Positions 10,451-26,907 of a stretch of 64,000 nucleotides of DNA are shown here, piece after piece (the first letter of the stretch is position 1; each line of letters starts with the position of its first letter). The stretch is from an uncultured Verrucomicrobiales bacterium (GTDB taxonomy: Bacteria; Verrucomicrobiota; Verrucomicrobiia; Verrucomicrobiales; Akkermansiaceae), in contig CALGJQ010000007.1 of assembly GCA_937928545.1 (NCBI GenBank), positions 248,001 through 312,000 on the forward strand. The letters run 5' to 3'. The translations under genes and the position numbers were made by a program. Under the pieces are notes generated by a model. The model did no database searches and was not told the DNA's origin. It saw only the letters and a list, made by a program, of their open reading frames with translations.

Positions 10451-10792
10451 ATTGAGGATGAGTTTAAGTATTCGAAGAAGCTGTATGCGTTTTTTTGGCA
10501 CCCAAGATTGAATTGCGCGTAGTCTAGGGCGATTTCAAGAGATCTAGAAGGGAGTCGTAATTCCTTTTTCGGCGGCCGCTAGCATTGACGGTAATGCCTC
10601 ACCCTTCCTAAGTCAGTGATTTTTCGGTGGAAGATTAAGCTGCAAACCGTCTTAATTACCTGCCATTATGCCCTGGATTTTTTTTGGGTGGAAAGTGTTT
10701 TAGCTGTGTTTTTGTTACTTTCAGCTTTCAATTCGATTTTTGAGTCATGTTTATTGTTGACTAAATTATGGTCACTTGTGCATGGTCCCTTT
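10451..10792. other. Intergenic region ahead of the exported-protein block
   Basis: 342 bases without a convincing gene. It is AT-rich from about 10610, with TTGACT at 10757 and T-rich runs, and probably holds the promoter of the exported block. An open frame from 10616 runs through it into the next gene, but the signal peptide starts at 10793. No hairpin with a T tract was found for accA. Confidence 0.5.
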
Positions 10793-12634
10793 ATGCGAAT
10801 TTTTCTGAATATCGTTAAGTTGGGCGTTATCACAAGCATAGGTTTAGTTGTCGTTGAACCTCTCGCTGCAGACCCCAATGTCGTCGGCGATGGTCAAGCG
10901 TATTTGGTTGAGGTGCAAGCCAATGATTCTCTGCAGTTTTTACCTTCTCAGGGTGCAAGTGATCCATATCCCGAGAGTGGCGTCATGGAGGTTTACGAAG
11001 AATGGTTGCCGTTTTATGACGAAAATCACCCTAAGCATGCTTTCAATTACGTGCCTAAACGTTCCCATTTCTACGTCCAAGGTAATCATGACATGCTTAT
11101 TCCACTCGGTGCGTTTACAGCTGGAGAGGTTACAATTTCCTACTCAGGGATTGAAACTAACGGCTTTTTCTCAGGAACAGCAACTGTAGGGCATAGCTAC
11201 CAAAGTCCAGTGACTTTTCCTAGCTCAGTAGATCCAGTCAGGTGTTGGGTAAGAGAACATTCTGGAAGCACCTCATGGAATAAAGAGCATCCAGTTAAGT
11301 TGAGAGTTGGTCACTACGTGAACAATAGTGGAAATAAAAATGGTTGGTATAGACAATATTTTTTGCAGCTGAATCGATTGGGCCAAACCAGTGATTCACT
11401 CTCACACATAAGTATTACTGTAGAAACTCGGAATCTCCGATTCGATACTCATACTCCCTTTTTTAGCGCGGCTACTCTTCTTAGTGCAGAGAATTCTGTT
11501 GTGCCCCAGACTATATTAGAGAACTTTAAATCTCCCTACGATGTTAACACCAAAATGAGCATTTCAGGTTCCCCCATTCTTACCGAAGCCACTGCAGTCG
11601 CAGCTCTTTCCGGTGATTTTCTGAGGACAAATCAGCTAAACGACTCCTTTCGTGCTAATACAGCTTCCTTTGGCACGTCCCCGAGGACAACAGAGTTAAA
11701 CAACGGAATCAATATTTCATCGAGTGGGACGATTGGATTGCAGTCGAATAGAGCCATTCTAAATTCTTTTCTGACTCTCAGTAACCCGGGAAATTCAACA
11801 ACCCGTCAACAACTTATGTTCGATCCTAATCAGATCTATGCAACAGCGGATCTTAATATTGAGGCCAATGCCTGGGTGAAGTTCATTACCCCCGAAGTAA
11901 TTGTTAGTAATGATTTGGAGGTGGCGGGTGAGCTGAATGTCGCGGGTTCCCCAGTCGTAACAAGCGATAACCTCGATTCCCAGGTTTCAGCCTACCTCAA
12001 TGCTGAATCGTATTTGAAAGCAGATAGCAATGGAGCTATTTTTGGACTAGGAAATATAAATATTCAAGACCCATATGGATTTGGATACTATGACAACTCT
12101 TTTGTTCCTGGAGTTCATTCGTCCTTTGTACAAGGGGCTGGGAATTCAGTTGGTGGAATTTATTCTTTTGCGAGTGGGTATGGCAATTGGTCTACATCTG
12201 GATCTCATTCCAGCTTTCTCTTAGGTACATCCAACGGTGCTTTAGTAGGTAACACCCAGTTCGGGGTTGGATCTTATAATCGTTTCCAAGATTCTGCCGA
12301 TCATTCAGTTGCATTTGGAAAGTCAAATGAACTGTTTTCCTCGCTTTCATTTGCCTTTGGCGAAGGGAATGACGTATCTGGGTCTTCCGCGATTGCAATT
12401 GGAAAGGGGCTCGATACCTCGACTGCCGGTGCAATCGTTCTTGGGAAATTTAACCAAACCGTTGGTTCCGAGCCAGATAGTTATACTGATTTAGAACAAC
12501 CCATTTTAGTGGTTGGAAACGGAACGGGCCACTCTGCCGCGGAGCGATCAGACGCCCTCGTCATTAAACGGAATGGCGATGTTATCATCTCGAAACCCCA
12601 AGGCGACGTCTCCATGGGGATCTACGGTAACTAA
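10793..12634 (+). CDS. Exported protein with YadA-head-like repeats
   Basis: 613 residues. The start at 10793 gives a classic signal peptide (MRIFLNIVKLGVITSIGLVV, cleavage near LAA-DPN). Residues ~25-250 form a beta-rich N-terminal region without a known match. From ~430 on come short repeats of the trimeric-autotransporter head type (SSFVQGAGNSV, YSFASGYGNW, SSFLLGTSNGA, HSVAFGKSNEL, LSFAFGEGNDV, SAIAIGKGLD, GAIVLGKFNQ). The C-terminus (ALVIKRNGDVIIS) resembles the end of tail-fibre-like proteins; there is no YadA membrane anchor and no S74 chaperone domain. It is likely a surface or secreted adhesin-type trimer. 42 bases separate it from the next exported gene. Confidence 0.75.
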   Translation: MRIFLNIVKLGVITSIGLVVVEPLAADPNVVGDGQAYLVEVQANDSLQFLPSQGASDPYPESGVMEVYEEWLPFYDENHPKHAFNYVPKRSHFYVQGNHDMLIPLGAFTAGEVTISYSGIETNGFFSGTATVGHSYQSPVTFPSSVDPVRCWVREHSGSTSWNKEHPVKLRVGHYVNNSGNKNGWYRQYFLQLNRLGQTSDSLSHISITVETRNLRFDTHTPFFSAATLLSAENSVVPQTILENFKSPYDVNTKMSISGSPILTEATAVAALSGDFLRTNQLNDSFRANTASFGTSPRTTELNNGINISSSGTIGLQSNRAILNSFLTLSNPGNSTTRQQLMFDPNQIYATADLNIEANAWVKFITPEVIVSNDLEVAGELNVAGSPVVTSDNLDSQVSAYLNAESYLKADSNGAIFGLGNINIQDPYGFGYYDNSFVPGVHSSFVQGAGNSVGGIYSFASGYGNWSTSGSHSSFLLGTSNGALVGNTQFGVGSYNRFQDSADHSVAFGKSNELFSSLSFAFGEGNDVSGSSAIAIGKGLDTSTAGAIVLGKFNQTVGSEPDSYTDLEQPILVVGNGTGHSAAERSDALVIKRNGDVIISKPQGDVSMGIYGN

Positions 12635-12676
12635 GCGCGTAGCATTTTCCTCCACCCAATTCTTCAATATGCGCCC

Positions 12677-15319
12677 ATGAAAGTCCTTTTCTCCATCTTT
12701 GTAGCCCTTTCGATAGGAGGGACTTCTCTCGCCTCGGTGCTACTAGGTGATCTCGGTCCAGCAAATGGTGTCACGGGCCCAGATAGCCGCGGAGGAACTG
12801 GCTACCTCCTTTTTAATCCAAATGGCTTGGGCCCTCATCGCATGAACTACCAGCCGCACGATGCTGACAACTTTGTCGTCGTCGTTTATGAGGCGGGAAC
12901 CTGGTCCTACTATTCAAACGATACGAGCTTCCCCTTCTTACCCGATCAAGCAGACGTCCTCGTCGCAACTTTGAATTTTTCAAACGACACTGCTCAGCTC
13001 TTAGAGGGGCAAAATTCCGTAATCGAAGGGATCTCAGCAGGTTATTCTGCCGGCGATCTCGTCGTGACCCCTGATTTTTGGAATGGACAAGGAAATGATG
13101 GAGAATTTGGCCTCTCAGGAACCGAAATCACTCTCAATGTTGACCCCGCATGGTGGTCGGTGGGGGCAGATCCCGCCATCGTTCCCAATGTTCCCAATGT
13201 TGATCACAAGGCAGCGGCAAACTTGGGGCAAGCCAAATGGATGGCGAAGCTCGCCTACGATACTATTTTAGCGCGTAATCCCACCCTCGCCGCTGCAATT
13301 TTAGGAGAACTCGTCGGAGACCCTGCGACTCACCCCTTTTCAGAGTGGGAACCCGCAATCGCTCCAAATGGTGGAGACCGCGCCGCGCTTCTCCTCGGCC
13401 AGCTCAAGGCGATTTCAGCTCCATTCTATAATCAGATTCACCTCGCGGCACCCGCATGGCTCGAGGCCGAAATGATCAAAAACGGAACCCGCCAGCCCAA
13501 TACCCATCTACCATGGGGGCCGGATGTTGGACCGAGTGAAAATCGAGCCGCGGCAAACCTTGGCCAGCTCAAGGCTCTCTTCTCACTCCCTCTAGGCACG
13601 ATTAACGACAACAACCTAGATGCAGACCAAGATGGCCTCTCAGATTCCTTCGAGCAACAGATCATCGCCTCCAGTGGAGGAGCCTACACCAGCCTGTCTG
13701 ACCTGAATCCTGATGACGACCTCGATGGAGACTACCTTTCAAACTACCATGAGCTTCTCAATGGAAGTGACCCTCTTAGCCCAACTTATGGCCAGACCTA
13801 TACTCCAACTCAATGGCGGGACTTTTATCACGCAGAACCCTCCACTTCTAACTATGGAACAAGTCTCACCAAGCAAGGGAGCACCTCGTGGAGTTGGAAT
13901 TCAGGCGCAAAAAGCACGCGATTGATGGAAGGAGATGGCGGAATCACCTTCCGTCTCCCGGTCCAAGAGGACCCAAAGCACTACGCAATATGTGGTCTCT
14001 CAGTCTATGATTCAGGGCCAAGCTATTTCAGTCTAGACTACGCTTTCTATCGCTACGGACTGATTGTCGCCATCCTTGAAAATGGTGTGAGAAAACGGAC
14101 TTTTGGTGCGGCATCAATCGATGCCGTCTTCACGATCCGGCGGATCGGATCGACCATCACCTACTATATTGATGAAAAGGTCGTTTACACCTCTTCTACT
14201 TCATCCGGGCGACCGCTCTTCATGGACTCGTCCCTCTTGCAGGTTGGATCACAAATCACTCATGCAGGATCATACGGCTTTAGTAACGGAGATAGTGATC
14301 GAGACGGCCTTCCTGATTCTTGGGAACTCGCAAATGCTCCCGACCTCAACACTCTCTCACCTGAGTCCGATCATGACCTAGATTTCTTTTCCACTTCATT
14401 AGAGTATCGCACTCAGAGCGACCCCTTTGAGCCGAACGATACTATGCCCCGCGCCCTCCCGATCGTTTGGGAAAGCTCGACCACCGTGCAAGACAGCTTC
14501 AATGAAGAGACCTTCACGAGCTCGATCATTCGGACCCGTCCATACAACTCATGGAATGCTGGAATTCATTCAGCGGGCTACATTCATGGCGATGGCTCTG
14601 TCCTCTTCCGTGTAGCAGACGGTCAGGCTGCACGCATGGTTGCCTTGAGCGCCAACAGTGCGGATGATGGATATACCGAGCTCAATCACGCGATCTACAT
14701 CAGTGCCTACCTCGCAAGTTGTTACGAAAATGGCGTTCGAAAAGTCACTCTCGGAGGAGCCGGAGAAGGAGATGTCTTTGAAGTCAAGCGATCGGGTTCT
14801 GAAATCACCTACCTCATTAATGGAGTCGTGAAATACACCTCTGAAGTGACCTACCCCAACCTCAGTAATGACCCCGACGTCGTCACTAGGACGCCCCTCC
14901 TGATCGATACCTCCATCGTTCACTCCGGAAAAGGCATCGAGCACATCGCGTCCATTGGCATGACTTACGATTCAGGAAACGAGGACGCCGACAACGACGG
15001 CGCCCCAGCTTGGCTAGAAACCCTTGCAGGCCTGAGTGACTCCAATCCAGACCAAGACGGCGATGGCTTGCTAGACGGGACGGAGTTCTTCACCTATCGC
15101 TCCAGCCCATTCTCACTGGATACTGACGGCGATGGTCTCCCAGATGGTTGGGAAGGCCCGAATAACCTGAAAGCCTATGATCCCAATGGAGCAAACCTTC
15201 CGGATACGGACAACGATGGGCTCACTGATTTACTTGAGTTCCAGATTGGAACCTTTCCCGATGACAGCGATTCAGATGACGATTTCGTCCCGGATGGAGT
15301 TGAATACTACGGACTTTAA
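12677..15319 (+). CDS. Exported protein with GQLK repeats, duplicated beta domain and TSP3-type repeats
   Basis: 880 residues with a signal peptide (MKVLFSIFVALSIGGTSLAS). Residues ~170-315 carry three copies of an A-A-x-x-L-G-Q-x-K motif (AAANLGQAKWMAKLAY, AALLLGQLKAISAPFY, AAANLGQLKALFS). TSP3-like calcium-binding segments (DADQDGLSDSFE, DSDRDGLPDSWE, DTDGDGLPDGWE, DTDNDGLTDLLE) alternate with two related ~160-residue beta domains at ~375-540 and ~600-760, each ending in an ENGVRK strand, an ITY strand and a YTS strand. Such proteins are surface-located in Verrucomicrobiota. The next gene starts 13 bases after the stop, so they form an operon. Function unknown; adhesion or substrate binding is possible. 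Confidence 0.75.
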   Translation: MKVLFSIFVALSIGGTSLASVLLGDLGPANGVTGPDSRGGTGYLLFNPNGLGPHRMNYQPHDADNFVVVVYEAGTWSYYSNDTSFPFLPDQADVLVATLNFSNDTAQLLEGQNSVIEGISAGYSAGDLVVTPDFWNGQGNDGEFGLSGTEITLNVDPAWWSVGADPAIVPNVPNVDHKAAANLGQAKWMAKLAYDTILARNPTLAAAILGELVGDPATHPFSEWEPAIAPNGGDRAALLLGQLKAISAPFYNQIHLAAPAWLEAEMIKNGTRQPNTHLPWGPDVGPSENRAAANLGQLKALFSLPLGTINDNNLDADQDGLSDSFEQQIIASSGGAYTSLSDLNPDDDLDGDYLSNYHELLNGSDPLSPTYGQTYTPTQWRDFYHAEPSTSNYGTSLTKQGSTSWSWNSGAKSTRLMEGDGGITFRLPVQEDPKHYAICGLSVYDSGPSYFSLDYAFYRYGLIVAILENGVRKRTFGAASIDAVFTIRRIGSTITYYIDEKVVYTSSTSSGRPLFMDSSLLQVGSQITHAGSYGFSNGDSDRDGLPDSWELANAPDLNTLSPESDHDLDFFSTSLEYRTQSDPFEPNDTMPRALPIVWESSTTVQDSFNEETFTSSIIRTRPYNSWNAGIHSAGYIHGDGSVLFRVADGQAARMVALSANSADDGYTELNHAIYISAYLASCYENGVRKVTLGGAGEGDVFEVKRSGSEITYLINGVVKYTSEVTYPNLSNDPDVVTRTPLLIDTSIVHSGKGIEHIASIGMTYDSGNEDADNDGAPAWLETLAGLSDSNPDQDGDGLLDGTEFFTYRSSPFSLDTDGDGLPDGWEGPNNLKAYDPNGANLPDTDNDGLTDLLEFQIGTFPDDSDSDDDFVPDGVEYYGL

Positions 15320-15332
15320 AAAATAAAATCTA

Positions 15333-18197
15333 ATGATGAAAATCTCCGTGAAAATTTTCCCAATTCTGTGTGTCGGTCTCTTGCAGGGGCAGGATAATGA
15401 TGAAAATCGGCCGCTCGATGGGAATACCAATCCGTATGTCGATTTTCTTTCGGCCGAAATAGTGGCATCTCCCACTCCTGGTGAAACAGCCCTTGGGTTG
15501 ACCTTTAGTGAGGAAATGGTCTTACCTCCAGACTGTGATATTCATGGCTTTGGGGTCAAAAAAATCCCTATAACTACACGGGCTTGGACCAATCCACTCC
15601 TCGAAGACCTAAATGGAGACGGAAAGCTTGATCTTATCGTTGCTGATGGGGAAAAGATCCTTGTCTATGAAAATATCGGCATCGCAGATGAACTTCAACT
15701 AAAAGCCAATGGGTATTGCATTGCAATTCGATCTTCAGGTCTTAGGTATCATCTTTCTTTATCTGATCTTACCGGAGATGATTTACCGGACTTGATCTGT
15801 AGTGATTCTTCTTCAGGTGAAATTTCCATGTTCCAAGGTTTGTCAACAGTCTCAGAAAATGGATTTCCAGATTTTGCAGAAGAGTTGCCTCTCACGACGG
15901 TAGATGCTGGCGGAAGTATCATTAATATTTCGGGCCCAAATCAGACAACTCATCCGGAAGCAATACGGCCTTTTGTAAATTTCACATACCCTCATCCCAC
16001 TTTTGCGGTTGCTTGTAAAATCGATTACAGCGCCCCTGGCGATAGAGACCTGCTGGTCGTTGGTTCACAAAGACATTGGGATCCCTTCGAAAACGATGTG
16101 GTGATAAAATTGAATTTCCATATTTATCCCGCCGGTTCGAGCTCTCATCACTTTGATGAATCAGTTCCACTATTGATTGACGGACAGGATACCCTTCTAG
16201 ATTTTCGGTCCCTTAACCCCGTCGTTTCTTACAGAGACTATGACGGGATCAATGGGCCTGATCTCATTGTGACAGGTTCTAGTTCTGCCTCAAATGATCC
16301 AACTAGAACTAAGGTCTATGTTGCTCTTAACACTGGTGCGAGAAACGAGAGTGGTAAGCTCGTTTTTGGAGCCTTTGAAGATAAGACGCCTGATGTTCTT
16401 CCAGAGGACTTTGGCCACTACTCAGCCATGCTTTTTGCTCATGTGAATAATGATGCCCTTCTGGATCTCGTCGTTTCATCTCAAACGACAATAGGACCTG
16501 CTCAGCGCCTCCTGAGATCTTACAAGGGGCAAAATACGGGTTCCCTCATGCACAACCTCCCAGATTCTGGATTTGTGATTGGCTCGAGTGAGTCAGCTCA
16601 GAGACTAGCTGGAGGCTTTGGAGATAGATCTCCGTTTTATGGAGCAGATTTTAACAATGATGGAAGAGTCGATTTAGTCAAAGGGAGCCCCTCAGGGCAA
16701 ATTTCCGTCTTTTACTGCACTGCTGCCAACACTTTTGAACCAACTTTTGCCTCTCCCATTTTATGCCGAAAATCTGACGGATCTATCTTCGTAGCAGAGT
16801 CAATCATCAATAATCCTTATGAGTTAGATTATCGAGCGATTCCTTATGACAGTGATTTGGATGGAGTGGTAGAAGGTCTTGTTATTGCATACGCCAATAA
16901 GCTGCTCTACGCCGAACTCCTGAGCCTTGATGAGTTTGGGTGCCTTGTTCTTGCTGATCCTGTCGAAATCGCTTTACCGGCCGATCTTCAAAGCGCAGAA
17001 GCGAAGGCAATCACGATTGCCATGGGCGACTTTAGCTCTCAAGCCGGAGGAGGGCAATATGATGGTGCAATCGTCATGGTTGATCGCTATCTTCCTGGGA
17101 GCGAACCGTCGTCGTTCTACTCTACCTATTTCGTCGAGCTTTCTGGGACCAATCCACCAGTGATTCAGAATCCAGTTCTGCTTGAAGAGTTTGGTTCCAT
17201 ACACGTGCATCCCCACTATCCTCTTTGCCCGCTTTTGCGAGATTTTGATGGCGATGAAAAACTTGATTTAGCAATCTGTCCCGAGATGGGTACTGGCTTC
17301 GATATCACCCATCGGTTTAGATGGTATCAAAACGTTTCCCAGTCTTCAGGCCCAATCACACAATCGGGAAGTTTTAGCCTAGACGGAGCGGGGGTGTTTA
17401 CCGACGGGACTTCAGTCCTCAATGCGCATTTTAGTTCTTCAAGATCATTAATGATTTTTGATCACCCCAACCAAGACGAAACCCGTCCTCTCGTGCTCAT
17501 GGACGCCGTATCAGATAATGGAGGATATGAGTATTTTATGCTGGATGGGCTCCATGAGATTAATCCTGAAGATCCTGAAGAAGATCCTGTGGCGGGGGTT
17601 TATCAGTTGGAAGATGGAGATTTAATTTTAGAGCGGGTGACTGATCGGAATGGCGGGAGCCTAATGATGGTAGTCAACCAAGTGATGGCCTCTTCAGTTG
17701 ATGGAGTTGTTGAAGTTGTTGAAGGCGATGAACAGAAAATCCGGAAAATCCGGATCACCGTCCCCGTCGGTCTGACTGAGGGGGACAGAGTCTCCGTGAA
17801 TCAGATTACGACCAAAATTCAAAACGCCTCCACGGAGATGGACGAGACTCATAAAGTCGCCTTCAGCAACTTTCCAATCTTAGGATACAATGATGACTTT
17901 GACACTGATGGCCTCGCCGATTGGTGGGAGGTCGTCTTTGGGATCGACTCTGCTTCCAGCGACTCTGACGACGATGGGCTTCTTGATGGGGAAGACGATC
18001 ATGATCTCGATGGCCTTTCGAACAAAGAGGAATCTGAATGGTATTTCCCTGAATTAGGATGGGTTCTTTCGCCGATCGATGAAGATAGTGATGACGATGG
18101 GGTCCTGGATAAGGACGATCAAAACCTTTCAGATGACGATAGCCTAGCGGCTCCGCCCGTTACCGAAGTGAAGGTGCTCACGCCTCTCGTCAATTAA
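15333..18197 (+). CDS. Exported FG-GAP/VCBS-type repeat protein with TSP3 tail
   Basis: 954 residues with a signal peptide (MKISVKIFPILCVGLLQGQ, start at 15333 or 15336). It contains many beta-propeller FG-GAP/VCBS blades with calcium-binding Asp clusters (DLNGDGKLDLIVADG, DLTGDDLPDLICSD, DFNNDGRVDLVKG, DFDGDEKLDLAIC), as in integrin-alpha-like and SpvB/TcB-type proteins. The C-terminal ~90 residues have TSP3 repeats (DTDGLADWWE, DSDDDGLLDGEDD, DSDDDGVLDKDD). It lies 32 bases before the RHS gene. FG-GAP plus RHS genes side by side recall the TcB/TcC cocoon of Tc toxins, but no SpvB domain could be confirmed by eye. Confidence 0.8.
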   Translation: MMKISVKIFPILCVGLLQGQDNDENRPLDGNTNPYVDFLSAEIVASPTPGETALGLTFSEEMVLPPDCDIHGFGVKKIPITTRAWTNPLLEDLNGDGKLDLIVADGEKILVYENIGIADELQLKANGYCIAIRSSGLRYHLSLSDLTGDDLPDLICSDSSSGEISMFQGLSTVSENGFPDFAEELPLTTVDAGGSIINISGPNQTTHPEAIRPFVNFTYPHPTFAVACKIDYSAPGDRDLLVVGSQRHWDPFENDVVIKLNFHIYPAGSSSHHFDESVPLLIDGQDTLLDFRSLNPVVSYRDYDGINGPDLIVTGSSSASNDPTRTKVYVALNTGARNESGKLVFGAFEDKTPDVLPEDFGHYSAMLFAHVNNDALLDLVVSSQTTIGPAQRLLRSYKGQNTGSLMHNLPDSGFVIGSSESAQRLAGGFGDRSPFYGADFNNDGRVDLVKGSPSGQISVFYCTAANTFEPTFASPILCRKSDGSIFVAESIINNPYELDYRAIPYDSDLDGVVEGLVIAYANKLLYAELLSLDEFGCLVLADPVEIALPADLQSAEAKAITIAMGDFSSQAGGGQYDGAIVMVDRYLPGSEPSSFYSTYFVELSGTNPPVIQNPVLLEEFGSIHVHPHYPLCPLLRDFDGDEKLDLAICPEMGTGFDITHRFRWYQNVSQSSGPITQSGSFSLDGAGVFTDGTSVLNAHFSSSRSLMIFDHPNQDETRPLVLMDAVSDNGGYEYFMLDGLHEINPEDPEEDPVAGVYQLEDGDLILERVTDRNGGSLMMVVNQVMASSVDGVVEVVEGDEQKIRKIRITVPVGLTEGDRVSVNQITTKIQNASTEMDETHKVAFSNFPILGYNDDFDTDGLADWWEVVFGIDSASSDSDDDGLLDGEDDHDLDGLSNKEESEWYFPELGWVLSPIDEDSDDDGVLDKDDQNLSDDDSLAAPPVTEVKVLTPLVN

Positions 18198-18229: not shown

Positions 18230-21200
18230 ATGATTAAGAGAACATTCTTCTTGGTAAATCTTGCCTTACTTTCCCTTTGCTCGGCACAGGACGAGAACAT
18301 TAATTTTTGTGTCGTCTCGGGGGAGGAGCCACTTCTTTATAGTGAGGCAAATGCCTATCTTGAAATTGAGAATGGGACAGGTTCGACTAAGGACTATCAG
18401 CCCAACGAGGCCTGTCATCTGTTTAAGAATCTCCCTAAGGAAGCTTCTTTTGAGATGACCGTTAAGGAGACTCCTGCTGCCGCAGCCTCTGGGGCTGCAG
18501 AATGTTTTAGTTTGATTAATGTCCCAAGTAACGTCGACTCAATCACCATTGAGGCAGAGGATGGGAAAAAGAATCAATACAAGAAAGTTAATGGTTTCTT
18601 CTTTTGTAACGAACAGATTGAACCTGCTGGGATGGTTTCTTTGCTGACTCGGAATGGGAAAACTCAGTTGAAGGTCAAAGGAGATGGGACCGAGGATGGT
18701 GTGACTACGAAGGCTAAAGTTTCGACTTCTGAATCATGTGGTAATGATAGTGGGAGCGAGATCAAAGTTGAACTGGGTAGTCCTGAAGCCGAAACTCAAG
18801 ATCCGGTTACTGGAGATGGGAGCCCTGTGACTCTGCCAGGCGGAGGCGCCTCGACTCCGGAAGGTGCTCCGGGCGGTGATGCTCCGAGTTGTTGTGCCAG
18901 TAGACCGGTTTCGCCAGATCAAGCTGGAATTGCCGATGGTCCTTTTCGAGCGACATATCGCCCGGGAGCAGAACTGAGGAACTCCCTTGAAAGATTTGCG
19001 GGCTTCTGGGGATCACCTCTTGCAGATCCTGATAACCCAGCCGTGTACAAATATGACGGTGACTTTAGTGATCCCTATGCTGCCAGTCGTATCCAAAATT
19101 TGTGGCTTAAAACCTGCGAAGACGTAAGGAAAACAGGGCAGCGCGAAATTTTCGACTCTCAGTGTGGTATCAAGGCGTGGTCTTACGACTCAGTAGATTC
19201 ACGTATCTATATTCTCCAACTTCGTGAAGGGGATCACTTGACGCAGATGCGTTATGAAAAATTAAGTGAGGACGTCGGCAATGAAGGCATTCCCAATGTT
19301 TACCACCGAGTGTCCGTGACATATTACTTGCTGGATAAGGTTCCAAAGACTCCGGTTTGGCATCAGTATGAAGATCCTGATAATAAAGGGAAGTTTCTAA
19401 TAGGCCAAAAAACGTTCGATGAGTCTCCGGAAGCCTATCCTACCGAACTCGATGCAAGTTTCTTGGCCACTTATGAAGGTCTTTACCTCACCGAAGGGAG
19501 TCACGTGAAGAAGGACCTCAGCGTCAGGCCGATTTTCTACGAGGAACGTGTCCTCCCTGACGGGCGAGTCAGAGTTGAAATCAGTCGTGACCCCTTCACT
19601 GACAATAATCCTGAAATCGTCACTCGAATTACTCAGCAAATAACGATCGGGGGAGAAGTAAACTGGGAAAGCGAAACAACATTAGATCGTTTGGTCGAGG
19701 GTGAGGTTGTGGAGCGGGAGATCGTCATTCATCAAAAGAAAGTTCTCCTTAATGCAGAACCACCGGAGGACGGTGAACTGGAAGAAACTGTCATAATGCG
19801 AGAATTCCGTGGTGCTTCAGAAGCTGAATTGGAACTAGTTTCAGAGTCTACCAAGGTCTATTTGAGTTTTACTCGCGATATTAGCGATACTCGCGAGGAT
19901 CCCATTCGTGAGCCTCTACTTCTCAGTTCATCTGACGGGGGTCCTCACGCAACTATCTATCACTATCGTTATGATGAGGAGCAGTCGGCCCTCAGTGGAT
20001 ACATTGCTGGGATTGAGTATCCTGATGGCACCTGGGTCCATTACGGCTACCAGAACCTAGCCTTCGATGATTCTTTCGATATTGAGGTTCGTCCATTCGG
20101 GGATGAAGCCTTTCCTGTTCTCGACGATTTTGATGCCTCCACCGCTACTTTAGCTGAGCTGGAGCCCTACCACGTCACGGTGGATTCACACGTCGATTCC
20201 TCCGAATACCTTACCACAGAATACATCGGGGGACAGCAGGTCTCAAAGACGGGGCTTCGCTATGATCTCTGCGACGATCATGATGATGAAAATGAGCTCT
20301 ACGATTACGGGTGTACGACCACAAAACGTTACTTCGCAGATGGAGAAGATGATTATCTTAGGTCGATCGTGGAGCATTTCGTCATTGAAGGGAGTGAAGA
20401 GCAAGATCCAACCTTGGATGGGAAGCTCCGGAGAATCATTCATTCAGACGGAACTATGGAGACCTACGATTATGCCTACGGCTTCTTCCATGGGAGAGAA
20501 GAGGGCTGGCTTGCTGCTGGTAATCGAAGTTTTAAAGAATATTTGGCATACACAGATGAATACGTTTGGGACTATATCGACGATGATGGTAACGTAGTCG
20601 AGATCCCAACAGATCTACGCACTCTTGTGATTCAAGGAACAGCTGGCTCGCCATCGGGGCTTACGGAGCAGACGACGATCAGGATCACTTATGAAGGCTT
20701 AGATGGAAAAGAAACGACTAGCCGAACTCGCCTCTATCAGGACGGGGGAGGGGTACAGGTAGTGGGGGAGGGCACTGCAATGTCCGTGACTGACACTGGT
20801 CTCCAAGATCTCCCTCTTTTATCCTCAAGTCATTTCGTTGAATATGAGGACGATGACGAGAATCAAATTTCCGAACAGAGATCCAATGGTCGCTTAGTCT
20901 CGAAAAATATTCGATCGGCCAATCGCAGTGAGTCGATCTCTCTTGGCGGCGGAAGAACGGTCACCGAGTATGATGAGCAGGGCTCTTTCGAGAGTTCGAC
21001 GGTGTATCATCCTGCGCCCGGTGTTCCCGCAACTCGGGTCGAGTACGCATACAATGGGCGAACGACGACCACGACTCGGACCTGGGTTCAGAATTCTGGA
21101 AATGAGCAAGAAGACTTAGCTTCGGTTTCCACGGTGACGACCAGCGACCTGATCGGTCGCTTGGAAAGTCAGGTTTCAGGAACGGGGCTTGTCACTTCCT

Positions 21201-24200
21201 ACGCTTACCCAACTCGTTTTGAAACCGAGGTCTCGGTAGCGGGGGAATTGGTGCGTAGGGAGGAAAGTTCGCCAAGCGCTTACCACAGGCTTGTCTATTC
21301 AGCCGGAGATCAGGGGGATGGCGTCTTTGCGATGGGGGATGATCCCGTAAGTTCGAGCAGTCGGGAGCAAGATGACAACGGCGATATTGTTCAAACGACC
21401 TGGCAACTCGGTGGGCCAGAAAGAAGTGTGACCTTCGATCAATTGGGGAATATTCTCACTTCCACAGCTTTAGGGCTTACGACCACTTATAGCTATGACG
21501 CCTTTAGAAGGGTGGAGAAGGTGCAGACCGTGGAGGAGGACGTGGGGGAGGAGGAGCAGACTGCCGTTCTACCTCCCACCTTGACGGTTTACGATGCTCT
21601 GGGCAGGGTCTGGAAACACGGAACTGATCGCGATGGAGATGGTGCTTTAACCGCTGGTTCCGATTATTTTACGGAGACTCTCTCCTCGTATCAGGAAATC
21701 GATGGTGCTTGGTGGCGCCAACAAGTGGTAAATTTGTTTCATTCGAGTGATGGCGTTCCGATTGTCACGACCAGTCGGAGTCGTGAATCTTTTCCTCCAA
21801 ACTCGGGGATCGTTTCGCAGAGTTTTGTCCAACGTGGAGACGGAAGCTCTGTCTTGACCACGCGGGAGATCGATCCCGACACTGGGGTTGAAGTGCTGAC
21901 GATCAATGACAGCAATTTCACTCGCGCGGTGAAATCGGTTTCGATCGGTGCTTATCCGATCTCTCAGCAAGATCCCCAATCTGGGAAGACCATCTTTTGG
22001 CAGTATGGGATCGAAGGCGGAAATCTCGTGACAAGCCAGACCGATTTACGTGGCGGTCTTTCAAAGACAGCGACCAATATTTTGGGCCAGACGACCTACA
22101 CTCAAAATCAACTGGGAGAAAAGACGAACTATTCCTATTACACAGGAAACATCCGAGGATCAGGACAGCTTTCCTCCACCACAAATGCGGAGAACGAAGT
22201 TGTGTCCTACACCTACAGTCCACTCGGGCAGGTTCTCACGACAGAAGGAAGTGGGGCCTATCCCATGCAGTATGGCTATGATGCTGCGGGCCGGATGACC
22301 CATCTGACGACCCAGAGAGAAGAAGGAGAGGAATCTATCACCCGTTGGTTTTATCACCCGGATAACGGGAAATTAGCCCACAAAATTTACAACTATGATC
22401 CCACAAAGGCCCCAAATGAGGCTTTTGAAATCTCTCCAGGCGTCGGGACCTCCTACCTATATGATTCTTATGGCCGCTTAACCGACAAGATGCTGGCGCG
22501 TCGAAACGACTACAATCCAGACTCGGCCGCAGAAAGGCTCACGATCTCATACGATTATGATGAGTTTGGGAATTTGACTCTGATTTCTGATAATGAGGCT
22601 GCGGGTGCTGACCGGACTTCCAATGTTGATTTTAGGAATTTCGATCTGTCAGGACGTCCTCGTGAAGTTCATATGAAGGGACAGGGCCAGCTTGATCTTG
22701 CCTATGATCCTCTGGGTCGTTTTACAAGTTCGGAATCCTACCAGAACTCTCCCGACTTTGGAGATAGCGTTTTAGATGGTCTAAAGCTCACTCGAGAGGA
22801 AGTCGCCAATGCTGCCGGCTTCGCATCCCGAACCATGAGCACGAAGGTCTGGAATAATGCGAGCGTTTTAAGCACCAACCAACGAAATTCCTTAAACGGG
22901 CGCCTCACCAGTCAAAACATCACCATGACTTTGGGGGCCGCGAATGTATCGGCCAGTAATACCATCGAGAGCTACTATGAAGGAACGGGAGTTCCTCGTT
23001 CGAGAACCGTCACTTTGAATGGTCATGGTGTCACTCATCACCAGCTGCTTAATCTAGGAGGTCGCTTGAAGGGGATTTCGACCAAGGCGCTGGGTGGCCA
23101 ACAAGAAACCCTTTCGTGGGTTTCCTACTCCCATGATCGGGTCGGTCGCAGGCTCTCGGCCACCCGCGAAGACCGCACAAAATGGTCCTATAGCTACAAT
23201 GACCGAGGCGAGGTCACTGGGGCTTCTAAAGCACTGGCTGACGCGACCCTTTTGCCCGGGCATCAATTCACCTACCAATATGATGACATTGGGAATCGTG
23301 AAATTGCAACTTACGGAGGGGGGATTGATGGAGCAAATCCACGCACAATTTCTTACAGTCCAAATGCCCTGAATCAGTATACCGAATCTGACGGGGGGGG
23401 ATCTCTCCCCATCATTGGACTGGCTCCAGAAGATACCAACATTCTTGTCGCCCACGAAATTGGCGGGACTCCGAAGACCACCGATCGAGAAGGACCCTAT
23501 TTCTTTGCGGAACTCATTGCTGAGGATGATGATGGCCAGTGGAGAGAGATCTACATATCAGATGATGCCGCCATTACTGCCGATGATCAGCGTGGAGCTC
23601 AGTGGATCGAGCCTTTCAACCCATTTTATAGATATGATGCTGACGGAAATCTGGTGGCGGATAGCCGGTGGGAATACCGTTGGGATGCCAATAACCGCTT
23701 AGTTTGGATGCGCACGGCGGAATATGCGCGGGTCAATCGAGGGCATCCTGATCTCGAACTGAGATTTACCTATGATCACCAAGGAAGGCGGATCCGAAAA
23801 GAAGTGACCAATCGTACAAATCCTCAAGATTCCTATGACCGGAGATTCCTATACGACGCTTGGAATTTGGTTGCGGAGTTCAATTGGGTAGCTAACGGGT
23901 CTTCTGGAACTGTGAATCAAGTGGCATCTCATCAATGGGGGAATGACCTCAGTGGTTCCTCGCAAAGAGCGGGGGGTGTTGGCGGACTCCTGTTTTCTTG
24001 CACCAAAGATTCGGAGACCGGTCAATGGGCGAAGCTGATCCCCAGTTTCGATGGGAATGGAAATATAATTGCATGGTCCAAAGATGGCAATCTGGTCCAA
24101 AAAAATGATTATGACGCTTTCGGCAATACCTTGACTACTTATTCGGCCGGAGCAGATTTAGCAGAAAATCCATTTGGTTTCTCAACGAAATACGAGGATG

Positions 24201-25114
24201 TCGAGACGGGGCTGCTTTACTACGGCTACAGGTATTACGATCCGGTGACGGGAAGATGGCCAAGCAAAGACCCCATCGGGGAACGGGGCGGGATGAATCT
24301 CTACGGGATGGTTGGGAATGATGCCGTCAACAGAGTGGATTTGTTAGGTATGACAGGCCTCGGAAATGCACATTCTGCGTTTCAAGCTTCATTGTGGAAG
24401 GGGTATACGGAGGCAAAGGATATGCCCTCAACCAAACATGGGCATGGGAAAATAGACATCGCTATGTTGTGGTTGATATTACATACTAAGGGAGTCGAGA
24501 CTGTGTATGATCCTTCGTTTGCGACAGGGGAAGGGAGTTTTTCGAATCCGAATCCTCACTACGGTATTGGGGGGGACCCAAAGATTTCGGTCCGAAATGC
24601 TGCAGACTTAAGTGATCCGTTAACGGTTGCTATTCACGAAGCAACTCATGTTTTTCATGGTGACAGAACAGGAAGTAAATATGCTTGGAACGGTCGACGA
24701 AATGAAGGACGAGCGTATGCAATGGAAGCGATTTTTTCAATTCACCGTGAATTTGCAAAGATGTGGGAAAGGATTGAAGTCGCAAACGCTCGATTAGGTG
24801 ATAATTGCCCGGAGTTTGCGAGAGTGGTTCAGGACCAATGGCGCGAGTTTAGTGAGTATCTCAGCTATGATAGGTATCCTGTGGGCTCGGGGCATACTGG
24901 GAGTATAGACTCGAGGGATGTCGGTAATATTGAAGATGGGGCGCTAGGTGCAAGTTTTAGTTGTAATCAAGTTCAGCAAATAATGAACAATAAATTTCCG
25001 GGGTTATCTGGGTGTTGCATATCGGTGAGTTGTATAAAGGGTCCGAAAAAAAACATTGATGATAATGATTTTAATTTCAACGCCTTTACTTCTCAAGATG
25101 AAATGTTTAAGTAA
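18230..25114 (+). CDS. Exported RHS-repeat protein with C-terminal HExxH metallopeptidase-like toxin domain
   Basis: 2294 residues with a Sec signal peptide (MIKRTFFLVNLALLSLCSAQ). A Gly/Pro-rich linker (~190-220) leads into a long YD-repeat region (YSYDAFRRVEKV, YGYDAAGRMTHL, YSYNDRGEVTG, YRYDADGNLVADS, NDYDAFGNTLTTY). It closes with the RHS core signature near residues 1985-2040: YYGYRYYDPVTGRWPSKDP, G-G-M-N-L-Y, NDAVNRVDLLGM. The core usually forms a shell around the C-terminal toxin and cuts itself near such sites. The last ~251 residues (from ~2044) are AT-richer in DNA and unlike the rest. They contain H2136-E-A-T-H2140 and then N2158-E2159, the pattern of gluzincin zinc proteases. The gene overlaps the following lipoprotein gene by 17 bases. 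Confidence 0.9.
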   Translation: MIKRTFFLVNLALLSLCSAQDENINFCVVSGEEPLLYSEANAYLEIENGTGSTKDYQPNEACHLFKNLPKEASFEMTVKETPAAAASGAAECFSLINVPSNVDSITIEAEDGKKNQYKKVNGFFFCNEQIEPAGMVSLLTRNGKTQLKVKGDGTEDGVTTKAKVSTSESCGNDSGSEIKVELGSPEAETQDPVTGDGSPVTLPGGGASTPEGAPGGDAPSCCASRPVSPDQAGIADGPFRATYRPGAELRNSLERFAGFWGSPLADPDNPAVYKYDGDFSDPYAASRIQNLWLKTCEDVRKTGQREIFDSQCGIKAWSYDSVDSRIYILQLREGDHLTQMRYEKLSEDVGNEGIPNVYHRVSVTYYLLDKVPKTPVWHQYEDPDNKGKFLIGQKTFDESPEAYPTELDASFLATYEGLYLTEGSHVKKDLSVRPIFYEERVLPDGRVRVEISRDPFTDNNPEIVTRITQQITIGGEVNWESETTLDRLVEGEVVEREIVIHQKKVLLNAEPPEDGELEETVIMREFRGASEAELELVSESTKVYLSFTRDISDTREDPIREPLLLSSSDGGPHATIYHYRYDEEQSALSGYIAGIEYPDGTWVHYGYQNLAFDDSFDIEVRPFGDEAFPVLDDFDASTATLAELEPYHVTVDSHVDSSEYLTTEYIGGQQVSKTGLRYDLCDDHDDENELYDYGCTTTKRYFADGEDDYLRSIVEHFVIEGSEEQDPTLDGKLRRIIHSDGTMETYDYAYGFFHGREEGWLAAGNRSFKEYLAYTDEYVWDYIDDDGNVVEIPTDLRTLVIQGTAGSPSGLTEQTTIRITYEGLDGKETTSRTRLYQDGGGVQVVGEGTAMSVTDTGLQDLPLLSSSHFVEYEDDDENQISEQRSNGRLVSKNIRSANRSESISLGGGRTVTEYDEQGSFESSTVYHPAPGVPATRVEYAYNGRTTTTTRTWVQNSGNEQEDLASVSTVTTSDLIGRLESQVSGTGLVTSYAYPTRFETEVSVAGELVRREESSPSAYHRLVYSAGDQGDGVFAMGDDPVSSSSREQDDNGDIVQTTWQLGGPERSVTFDQLGNILTSTALGLTTTYSYDAFRRVEKVQTVEEDVGEEEQTAVLPPTLTVYDALGRVWKHGTDRDGDGALTAGSDYFTETLSSYQEIDGAWWRQQVVNLFHSSDGVPIVTTSRSRESFPPNSGIVSQSFVQRGDGSSVLTTREIDPDTGVEVLTINDSNFTRAVKSVSIGAYPISQQDPQSGKTIFWQYGIEGGNLVTSQTDLRGGLSKTATNILGQTTYTQNQLGEKTNYSYYTGNIRGSGQLSSTTNAENEVVSYTYSPLGQVLTTEGSGAYPMQYGYDAAGRMTHLTTQREEGEESITRWFYHPDNGKLAHKIYNYDPTKAPNEAFEISPGVGTSYLYDSYGRLTDKMLARRNDYNPDSAAERLTISYDYDEFGNLTLISDNEAAGADRTSNVDFRNFDLSGRPREVHMKGQGQLDLAYDPLGRFTSSESYQNSPDFGDSVLDGLKLTREEVANAAGFASRTMSTKVWNNASVLSTNQRNSLNGRLTSQNITMTLGAANVSASNTIESYYEGTGVPRSRTVTLNGHGVTHHQLLNLGGRLKGISTKALGGQQETLSWVSYSHDRVGRRLSATREDRTKWSYSYNDRGEVTGASKALADATLLPGHQFTYQYDDIGNREIATYGGGIDGANPRTISYSPNALNQYTESDGGGSLPIIGLAPEDTNILVAHEIGGTPKTTDREGPYFFAELIAEDDDGQWREIYISDDAAITADDQRGAQWIEPFNPFYRYDADGNLVADSRWEYRWDANNRLVWMRTAEYARVNRGHPDLELRFTYDHQGRRIRKEVTNRTNPQDSYDRRFLYDAWNLVAEFNWVANGSSGTVNQVASHQWGNDLSGSSQRAGGVGGLLFSCTKDSETGQWAKLIPSFDGNGNIIAWSKDGNLVQKNDYDAFGNTLTTYSAGADLAENPFGFSTKYEDVETGLLYYGYRYYDPVTGRWPSKDPIGERGGMNLYGMVGNDAVNRVDLLGMTGLGNAHSAFQASLWKGYTEAKDMPSTKHGHGKIDIAMLWLILHTKGVETVYDPSFATGEGSFSNPNPHYGIGGDPKISVRNAADLSDPLTVAIHEATHVFHGDRTGSKYAWNGRRNEGRAYAMEAIFSIHREFAKMWERIEVANARLGDNCPEFARVVQDQWREFSEYLSYDRYPVGSGHTGSIDSRDVGNIEDGALGASFSCNQVQQIMNNKFPGLSGCCISVSCIKGPKKNIDDNDFNFNAFTSQDEMFK
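24360..25114 (+). other. RHS C-terminal (CT) toxin module
   Basis: This is the part of the RHS gene after the core motif. Base composition falls clearly below that of the core, as is usual for exchanged CT modules. HEATH is encoded at 24635-24649 and the NE pair at 24701-24706; the 19-residue spacing from the second His to the Glu is close to that of thermolysin-like proteases. Several Cys residues cluster at the end (SCNQ, GCCISVSC). Confidence 0.7.
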
Positions 25115-25484
25115 TTATTTTTGGATAAGCCTTTTGTCCTGTCCTGTTCTCGTTTCTTGTAAGGTCCAAGACAACGATAGAGGTGTCCCGCTCACCAATC
25201 GAGCTATAATGAATCTTCGAGTCGCTGTAAGATTATTTATTAGAAATGAAGGTGATGCGGGGATATTAGAGCGAATGGATCCAAAGAGTCTTTATCTTTT
25301 CATAGAGGGGAATGATCTTCCAAAGTCTGGCATTTGGGAAGAGAAGAAAGAGGTTCTCGATGTGTGGGGACATCCTTTTCTTATTAAGGTTACGGAAAAG
25401 AAGTTTTCGATACGTAGCTTCGGCGAAGATGGGGTTGAGTTTAATGACGATGATATTGATCTCCATTTTGACATAAATCCATAG
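25098..25484 (+). CDS. Lipoprotein with GspG-like tail, candidate immunity protein of the RHS toxin
   Basis: 128 residues from the ATG at 25098, overlapping the RHS stop by 17 bases. The N-terminus is a lipoprotein signal (MKCLSNYFWISLLSC then PVLVSC, lipobox L-V-S-C with Cys21). The C-terminal half has a pattern like the end of type II secretion pseudopilin GspG: VLDVWGHPFLIKV, FSIRSFGEDGVEF and DDDID, but without the pilin helix. Sited directly after a polymorphic toxin and anchored outside the cytoplasm, it fits an immunity protein against an exported toxin; that is inference from position. It shares the low GC of the CT module. A start at 25056 is possible but spoils the signal peptide. 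Confidence 0.75.
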   Translation: MKCLSNYFWISLLSCPVLVSCKVQDNDRGVPLTNRAIMNLRVAVRLFIRNEGDAGILERMDPKSLYLFIEGNDLPKSGIWEEKKEVLDVWGHPFLIKVTEKKFSIRSFGEDGVEFNDDDIDLHFDINP

Positions 25485-25515
25485 TGAGCGACCGCAACAA
25501 ACTAATAACTAATAA

Positions 25516-25560
25516 ACTAAGGTGCCAGACAACCAGGGACTAAGGTGCCAGACAAGCAGT
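25516..25560 (+). repeat. Tandem 23-bp repeat, two copies
   Basis: ACTAAGGTGCCAGACAACCA begins at 25516 and recurs at 25539 with one changed base. A third degenerate copy lies at 25687-25708, next to the RAYT start. The core TGCCAGAC is shared with the other repeat family in this island, so these are probably transposase-recognised REP-like sequences. Confidence 0.6.
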
Positions 25561-25567
25561 GAGTGAG

Positions 25568-25647
25568 CATTTTAATTGCCAGACGATTTGCATTTTAATT
25601 GCCCATTTTCATTTTAATTGCCCATTTTAATTGCCAGACGATTTGCA
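25568..25647 (+). repeat. REP-like repeat cluster upstream of the first RAYT
   Basis: Two full copies of a 25-bp unit (CATTTTAATTGCCAGACGAT then TTGCA) lie at 25568-25592 and 25623-25647, with two truncated CATTTTAATTGCC copies between them. The same unit recurs at 29618-29642, with variants at 29742-29766 and 29339-29362, always close to RAYT sequences. Confidence 0.7.
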
Positions 25648-25752
25648 CAGAATCCCCTTGCCACGGTCCGATCGACGCCTAAGGAGACTAAGTTGACAGG
25701 CAACCAGTTCTTGACCCACACCAAATCATCTTGTAGAAAGAGCCCGTAGCCT

Positions 25753-26907
25753 ATGAAGAAACAGGGAAAACGAGAGTTGAGCGACTTGGAGAAAGCGGAT
25801 TGTTTAACGGGGAAGATGATGGGGGGGATTGCCCTCAAAGCACCTGGTCGAGGGACTGGCAAAAGGCGTCGCTTTGTGTTCGATGATCGAACCTGCTGCT
25901 ACCACGTGATGTCCCGGGTGGCAGGGGGCGATTTACTCTTTGGGGATGTTGAGAAAGAGGCTTTTCGGAAGTTAATGCGGCGAATGGAACGCTTTTCCGG
26001 GGTTGAAGTGCTTACTTATGCGTTGATGGGAAATCATTTTCACCTTTTGCTGCGAGTTCCGGAGAGGCAGCAGTTTTTAAAGAAGTTCAATAAGGGGTCG
26101 AGGGAAGCACGAGAGGAGCGACTCTTTGAGCATTTGAAATTACTTTATTCGCGCGCGTATTTGCACCAGTTGAAAGCGGAGTTGGAAGTGATGAAGGAGA
26201 AGAAGCTCGATGAGCTTTATGAAAAGACGATTTCGAGTTTTTTAGCGCGGCTCTGTAGTTTGAAGCATTTTATGAAGGAGTTGAAGGAGCGCTTTAGTCG
26301 CTGGTTTAACAAACGACACGGTCGGCGAGGGACGCTGTGGCAGGAGCGGTATCGAAGTATTTTGGTGGAGGATGGAGAAGCCTTGCAAACCATGGCGGCT
26401 TACATCGATTTGAATCCTTTGAGAGCGGGTTTGGTGGCAGATCCAAAGGATTATCGTTGGTGTGGATATGCGGAGGCGATGGGGGGGAGTAAAAGAGGAC
26501 GAAAAGGGCTTTGCCGAGTGGTGGGGATGGCAATGGATTCTTGGGTGACTGGAGGGGGAGCCGCTTACCGAAGGTTGCTTCTAGGGGAGGGAATTGAGGT
26601 AGGGGCAAATGAGAAGAAGATTTTGAGAGGCCAAGGAAAAACGTTTTTCCGACGAGGGTTTGATCGTGAGAAGGCTTTGGAAGAGATTAGAAACGGAGGA
26701 AGCTTGACCAAGGGGGAGTTATTGAGATGTCGGGTGAGGTATTTTAGTAGTGGTATGGTCTTAGGAAGCCGAGCGTTTGTGGAGGAGGTTTTCGAGGCAA
26801 AGCGGGAGTGGTTTGGGCAAAATCGAAAAACAGGAGCGCGCGCACTACCGGTGAAAGAAGCTGGGCTGTTTTCGATACGCGATCTCAAGATTGAAGTGCT
26901 GGAATGA
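25753..26907 (+). mobile_element. REP-associated tyrosine transposase (RAYT, Y1/HUH family)
   Basis: 384 residues. It has the HUH motif in ALMGNHFHLLL (His95 and His97) and the catalytic-tyrosine region AAYIDLNPLRAGLV (Tyr217), as in TnpA-REP single-strand transposases. A ~110-residue helical, Lys/Glu-rich insertion separates them, as often seen in Verrucomicrobiota and Planctomycetes members, and WFNKRHGRRGTLWQERYRSI precedes the tyrosine. Such enzymes cut and rejoin REP hairpins at single-stranded DNA. REP-like repeats lie just upstream. It shares strong similarity with the second RAYT around the tyrosine, but the N-termini differ, so the two are not a recent duplication. Confidence 0.9.

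Follow-up and report, generated by a model that had tools for sequence, protein, structure and literature searches.

Combining a computational analysis of a 64,000-nucleotide stretch of DNA from an uncultured Verrucomicrobiales bacterium (the window; contig C7, positions 248001-312000, of a 4.0-Mb source genome in 75 contigs) with a survey of related genomes, we propose that an RHS gene and the small lipoprotein gene overlapping its end encode a toxin and its immunity protein, a reading to which sequence features and analogy to known systems lead us to assign a probability of about 0.58. The RHS protein would be a polymorphic toxin exported via Sec, the exchangeable C-terminal tip of which would be a zinc-binding, proteolytic and toxic metallopeptidase of the gluzincin type. 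Following its delivery, the tip would attack competing cells in their periplasm or at their envelope, and the overlapping lipoprotein, anchored in the envelope of the producer, would bind and block it as the cognate immunity protein.

The RHS gene occupies positions 18230-25114 of the forward strand, on which all features described here lie, and encodes a protein of 2294 amino acids (aa) with an N-terminal Sec-type signal peptide, as judged by eye. The protein combines RHS repeats (RHS_repeat, PF05593, E 2e-12 in a Pfam scan) with an RHS-associated core at residues 1961-2041 (Rhs_assc_core, TIGR03696, E 5e-24 in an NCBIfam scan; 24110-24352, corresponding to C7:272110-272352), the pairing that characterizes RHS polymorphic toxins. 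The core forms the boundary ahead of the variable tip, an orphan domain of 251 aa that follows directly (24359-25111) and represents the putative zinc metallopeptidase toxin domain. Here, HEATH, an HExxH motif, is encoded at 24635-24649 (residues 2136-2140, including Glu2137), and an N-E pair at 24701-24706, 19 residues past the last His, supplies Glu2159 as candidate third zinc ligand, in agreement with the HExxH and downstream Glu of gluzincins, or MA(E) peptidases, among which the tip would be placed. The lipoprotein gene (25098-25484, 128 aa) starts with an ATG at 25098, ahead of the RHS stop codon at 25112-25114, and thereby overlaps the RHS gene by 17 nucleotides (nt). Both parts are rich in AT. 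The tip has a guanine-cytosine (GC) content of 43.7%, lower than every 753-nt window tested in the RHS body (49.9%, range 46.1-54.7%), and 4.1% of the 753-nt windows in the 64 kb are equally AT-rich; the lipoprotein gene has 39.3%, matched by 0.3% of 387-nt windows. The position of the tip behind the core, the HExxH-E arrangement, the overlap, the lipobox described below, the shared AT-richness and an excess of exported-looking neighbours behind RHS tips in related genomes constitute the observed base of the proposal.

The N-terminus of the candidate immunity protein, MKCLSNYFWISLLSCPVLVSC, displays a signal peptide and a lipobox, L-V-S-C at residues 18-21 (25149-25160, located by eye), and was scored LIPO by our survey script. 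Bacterial lipoproteins are marked by a signal peptide with a lipobox ending in Cys, and the 128-aa protein is accordingly predicted to be one. Its C-terminal residues 82-118 (25341-25451) resemble the tail of the GspG pseudopilin. Using the single sequence, the matches fall below threshold (Pfam T2SSG, E 0.048; NCBIfam gspG, E 0.049; PDB 2kep, E 0.13), and a two-sequence profile, A2, the E-values of which apply to one genome each, detects L340 (E 9e-9) and L322 (E 2e-8) within profile positions 78-123, both true pseudopilins with GFTLVE-type N-termini. The tail is homologous to that of GspG, the major pseudopilin, whereas the remainder differs, with a lipobox in place of the GFTLVE prepilin N-terminus and its helix, and only residues 82-118 aligning. 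These results bear out what the initial annotation had read from the letters, namely an HExxH followed 19 residues later by N-E, a 17-base overlap with the RHS stop, a lipoprotein with a GspG-like tail, and higher AT content of both parts relative to the RHS core.

The best match of profile A2 apart from the protein itself, L320 (E 4e-9), is likewise a lipoprotein. We note that L320, with its GspG tail, and the pseudopilin L340 are located in the same genome (G290, C1:61996-62571), where about 450 nt separate them, and that their tails are similar. The pair suggests how a pseudopilin tail can reach a lipoprotein, and L320 is perhaps a pseudopilin duplicate turned lipoprotein. Many of the loci L005-L031 combine an N-terminal membrane anchor with a GspG-related C-terminal tail of the form LLDRWGxPYFFH...EIRSAGPD...DD, which is frequent in the order. 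An AlphaFold2 model of the lipoprotein from its single sequence is poor (predicted local distance difference test, pLDDT, 54), and Foldseek retrieves nothing for it at E 0.001, pseudopilins included. Viral contigs yield no relative of the lipoprotein, PHROGs provide no match, and none of the immunity families in Pfam matches.

Indirect support for the toxin-immunity proposal derives from RHS tips in related genomes. An RHS core was matched in 101 of 144 genomes, including the source genome, and 91 loci were surveyed: 29 fetched automatically, the RHS gene of the window, the second RHS gene of the genome, and 60 hand-picked regions, a non-random choice taken down a list of at least 150 core-match rows while skipping some near contig ends or adjoining chosen ones. 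The third core match in the source genome (L035), partial and sub-threshold, was omitted. Tips were resolved at 84 loci and not at 7; subtracting 8 tips shorter than 100 aa and 6 without a downstream open reading frame (ORF) leaves 70. This survey replaces an earlier, cruder pass (64 of 92 loci resolved; 5 HExxH, 10 lipobox, 1 GspG tail). Export was assigned by an ad hoc score built from hydropathy and lipobox, which makes errors in both directions: on inspection by eye, the neighbours at L208, L234, L235 and L244 look exported though scored none, and that at L232 perhaps has a plain signal peptide. Controls were ORFs of at least 200 codons for which 1 kb of room was available, taken from 20 chosen stretches of the same genomes, rather than annotated genes, the room rule being applied to the controls and not to the RHS loci.

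Directly downstream of the 70 tips we find 11 predicted lipoproteins, 35 proteins with a signal peptide or membrane helix, and 24 with neither. Exported-looking neighbours hence follow 46 of 70 RHS tips versus 33 of 136 control genes, and for neighbours of 60-300 aa the numbers are 44/68 versus 14/86 (p 7e-10). Grouped by similarity, the 70 tips fall into 66 clusters, of which 43 have exported-looking neighbours, 22 do not and 1 is mixed, so that copies do not account for the excess; moreover, no two neighbours in this set match one another at E 1e-3. Such tips, differing from one another behind the core, are as expected for RHS polymorphic toxins. The only other RHS core above cut-off in the source genome, on contig C10, carries its own, different tip of 123 residues followed by a signal-peptide-like protein, which speaks for the toxin-immunity reading. 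That exported-looking partners are in excess behind RHS tips is a more general result than the locus itself.

Among the 84 resolved tips, here including those below 100 aa, six possess HExxH. Besides the tip of the window, these are L226, a Peptidase_M91 tip in Pfam (E 3e-9, above cut-off) overlapped by a lipoprotein gene by 4 nt; L232, a DUF922-like tip (E 0.001, below cut-off) with an exported neighbour of doubtful lipobox; L218, with no peptidase match and a lipoprotein overlapping by 10 nt; L207, SprT-like (E 0.025), with a signal-peptide-like neighbour; and L192, matching Tox-MPTase5 at E 0.1, the neighbour of which was scored not exported. Scored lipoproteins follow 4 of 6 HExxH tips versus 8 of 72 others (p 0.004), with L232 ambiguous and L218 devoid of a peptidase match. 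At Pfam E 0.01, the 46 tips with exported neighbours include DUF4329 (5 tips) and Prok-JAB (4, perhaps partly the same tips), along with single matches to PLA2G12, Phospholip_A2_3, M91, DUF922, peptidase C97 and a putative esterase; in this group, matches to Pinin_SDK_memA and Barttin, a single tip for either family, were taken as spurious. The 24 tips with neighbours scored as not exported include LHH nuclease, Ntox50, HINT (L247) and Tlde1/YkuD matches, the last at L235, where the neighbour resembles a signal-peptide protein by eye. Many tips match nothing, and of ten from the exported group scanned singly only L064 gave a match. The overall pattern fits envelope-acting tips having exported protectors, tempered by the suggestion that toxin JAB domains may be nucleases (PMC3482391).

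Known systems provide precedents for both halves of the proposed pair. VgrG2b, an HExxH effector of the thermolysin type, exerts its killing activity in the periplasm; its immunity protein, PA0261, must be exported, and PA0261 homologues in Enterobacteriaceae are predicted lipoproteins (PMC6899460). Together with the survey, this precedent sustains the logic of the initial annotation, in which a toxin acting at the envelope calls for protection by an exported protein. As in VgrG2b-PA0261, or Tpe1-Tpi1, an HExxH tip at the C-terminus of a large carrier is followed by a small downstream gene (PMC6899460). The carrier of VgrG2b is however a spike of the type VI secretion system, here a signal-peptide RHS protein, and VgrG2b is annotated as DUF4157 (PMC6899460), while the tip has no Pfam family at E 1; the lipoprotein is likened to PA0261 by description. 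Most likely, the locus works as a peptidase toxin and exported immunity lipoprotein in analogy to Tpe-Tpi pairs, to the families of which no relationship could be detected.

Sec-dependent RHS toxins were catalogued by Zhang et al. in 2012 (PMC3482391). In the available portion of that catalogue, Tox-MPTase1-5 represent five zincin-like RHS tip families with no immunity family tabulated, and these, like HopH1-type (M91) RHS toxins, similarly place a small zincin-like tip after RHS repeats (PMC3482391). Unlike those toxins, the tip matches none of these families in Pfam; profiles of Peptidase_M91, Tox-MPTase and DUF4157 yield nothing above cut-off or at E 1 or better. A PVC-metallopeptidase tip after RHS repeats has already been published for Pedosphaera parvula of the same phylum, with the signature HExxHxxQ-E (PMC3482391), from which the HEATHVFH of the tip deviates by His in place of Gln. 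According to the catalogue, all but a few of the immunity proteins known to its authors are cytoplasmic, some partners of L,D-peptidase toxins being secreted or membrane proteins, and Tox-JAB-1 with Imm65 is the only case with a lipoprotein (PMC3482391). This pair shares with the locus an RHS toxin and lipoprotein immunity, but has another toxin fold and is confined to Bacteroidetes (PMC3482391), and the lipoprotein studied here has no Pfam immunity match. The term 'immunity lipoprotein' has also been used for a lipase toxin secreted by the type VII secretion system, there in Gram-positive bacteria (PMC10730906). Both RHS peptidase tips, including one from a verrucomicrobium, and lipoprotein immunity have been described before. 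Neither an exported-immunity pattern in this order nor a pseudopilin-derived immunity protein is reported among the matches listed, with subscription journals mostly outside coverage.

Several results weigh against the proposal, its weakest links being the structure of the tip and the genomic position of the lipoprotein's relative. An AlphaFold2 model of the tip from its single sequence is uninformative (pLDDT 47) and has no Foldseek match at E 0.001. The zinc-peptidase reading draws on the motif and on analogy. No credible relative of the tip was detected in protein searches of the 144 related genomes or of 387 genomes of the phylum, two overlapping sets, nor in genome and viral contigs, where a single-protein query reaches close relatives only, nor in plasmids and phages by tblastn. 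The single full-length relative of the lipoprotein, from another species of the genus (G021; E 1.3e-19, 36% identity in the alignment), does not follow an RHS gene, its start codon overlapping the stop codon of a sulfatase-like gene. Relatives were sought with the protein in the 144 genomes and with profile A2 in 387 genomes of the phylum and 27 of the genus, in overlapping sets. At the other tail-bearing loci, an RHS signature was found in 0 of 50 within flanks of about 1.5 kb in a pattern check (L005 and L337, counted among the 50, are the same place). In the survey, allowing ATG starts only, within a narrow range, shrinks the excess to 36/63 versus 10/34 (p 0.011), and exported neighbours in general are not significantly enriched after HExxH tips (5/6 versus 42/72, p 0.39). 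Signal-like RHS N-termini were noted by eye in 8 of 19 loci in one batch and 16 of 26 in another, many others being cut or unclear, and a rule by which an RHS signal peptide implies an exported partner was rejected, with exceptions both ways: L038, L051, L061, L211, L231 and L247 have a signal-like N-terminus and a neighbour scored not exported, and L217, L242 and L248 an exported-looking neighbour and no visible RHS signal.

The tip could alternatively be toxic through another activity, HEATH and the downstream Glu being a product of chance or non-catalytic, which we regard as distinctly unlikely. HExxH arises in 1.9% of 20,000 shuffles of the tip, Pfam and NCBIfam return no family at E 1 or better, and the tip at L218 demonstrates that the string can occur without a peptidase match; HExxH with ExxA 8-40 residues further on is however rarer, at 0.28% of the same number of shuffles. 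In the low-confidence model, both motifs are set in predicted helices (tip positions 87-100 and 113-146), which also argues for a genuine site, as does a weak match to phrog_1365 (E 0.27), members of which share HEAxH-x18-ExxAY.

The latter is one of two weak PHROGs matches of the tip, the other being phrog_20561 (E 0.014). A looser motif scan of viral contigs returned at least 120 stretches, including small phage proteins with HEAxH-x18-ExxAY, and five of the six of these proteins tested match phrog_1365. The likeness to the tip is a lead only, because the search pattern itself selected for the motif. At viral-contig loci such as L072, L077, L092, L111 and L115, phrog_1365 proteins carry HEAxH and ExxAY; phrog_1365 is possibly a small phage metalloprotein. 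A fixed-spacing scan of genome contigs gave four stretches, none of them related (best tip-to-ORF score E 3.6), and a weak tip match in G396 (E 0.00995) was set aside, with two internal stops and no RHS-like ORF seen. A PDB sequence search provided no relative of the tip, and PADLOC no match for tip or lipoprotein.

Turning to the partner, the relative in G021 and the 50 RHS-free loci speak against a protein family dedicated to RHS immunity, while recruitment at this locus would still be compatible with them. Given that the full-length relative has a sulfatase-like and not an RHS gene as its overlapping partner, co-occurrence offers no proof of immunity. The lipoprotein may instead be an unrelated, pseudopilin-derived envelope lipoprotein placed behind the tip by rearrangement, with the toxin lacking dedicated immunity or being aimed at distant cells. 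The position of the G021 relative agrees with this, and the GspG-like tail is a module that occurs commonly across the order and phylum, in true pseudopilins and membrane-anchored proteins alike. Moreover, a RAYT-type (Y1_Tnp) transposase gene, preceded by short direct repeats, is located downstream of the lipoprotein gene (25510-26907). Set against the 17-nt overlap, the AT-richness shared with the tip and the frequency of small exported proteins directly after RHS tips in related genomes, we consider such an unrelated lipoprotein unlikely. RAYT-like ORFs occur at 3 of 91 RHS loci (319 kb) versus 0 of 20 control stretches (300 kb), counts too low to infer mobility of tip cassettes. Of the toxin-immunity interpretation put forward initially, the RHS layout, the metallopeptidase-type motif, the overlapping exported neighbour and the AT-rich pair stand, whereas zinc binding by the tip and the immunity function of this lipoprotein are predicted.

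The genes upstream raise a further possibility. Three large genes at 10616-18197 encode an unassigned protein of 672 aa, one of 880 aa that carries TSP3 repeats and one of 954 aa that carries FG-GAP repeats, and may form one surface-protein operon. A scan for promoters and terminators gave sites no commoner than in shuffles (16 versus 18.1; 15 versus 19.0). The RHS gene starts 32 nt past the end of the gene for the exported FG-GAP protein, itself preceded by the TSP3 protein gene, and this arrangement, like the location of the lipoprotein's relative among further sulfatase-like genes (labelled by eye), would suit an RHS protein that is a surface adhesin or scavenging peptidase rather than a weapon, with the lipoprotein as surface accessory. 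Such a reading is nevertheless very improbable, as the tip begins directly after the RHS core, the 66 clusters in 70 tips follow the pattern of exchanged toxin tips, and several surveyed tips match toxin-type families (M91, LHH, Ntox50, Tlde1 and DUF4329).

In conclusion, we favour the reading of the RHS gene and its overlapping neighbour as an envelope-acting toxin with a cognate immunity lipoprotein. A broader account, which we put forward tentatively and with the odds somewhat against it, is that a pseudopilin turned lipoprotein was recruited to inhibit, in the periplasm, a zinc-peptidase toxin of a new family. The locus would be one case of a wider rule in the order, by which RHS tips that attack the envelope have immunity proteins that are exported and in some cases lipid-anchored, whereas those catalogued in 2012 are mostly cytoplasmic. 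If true, the locus would represent a toxin family and an immunity fold that are both new, and many RHS-linked immunity proteins of this order would act outside the cytoplasm, which counts as exceptional in that catalogue (PMC3482391). The chemistry of the tip, envelope-acting or cytoplasmic, would then tell the location of the immunity protein.

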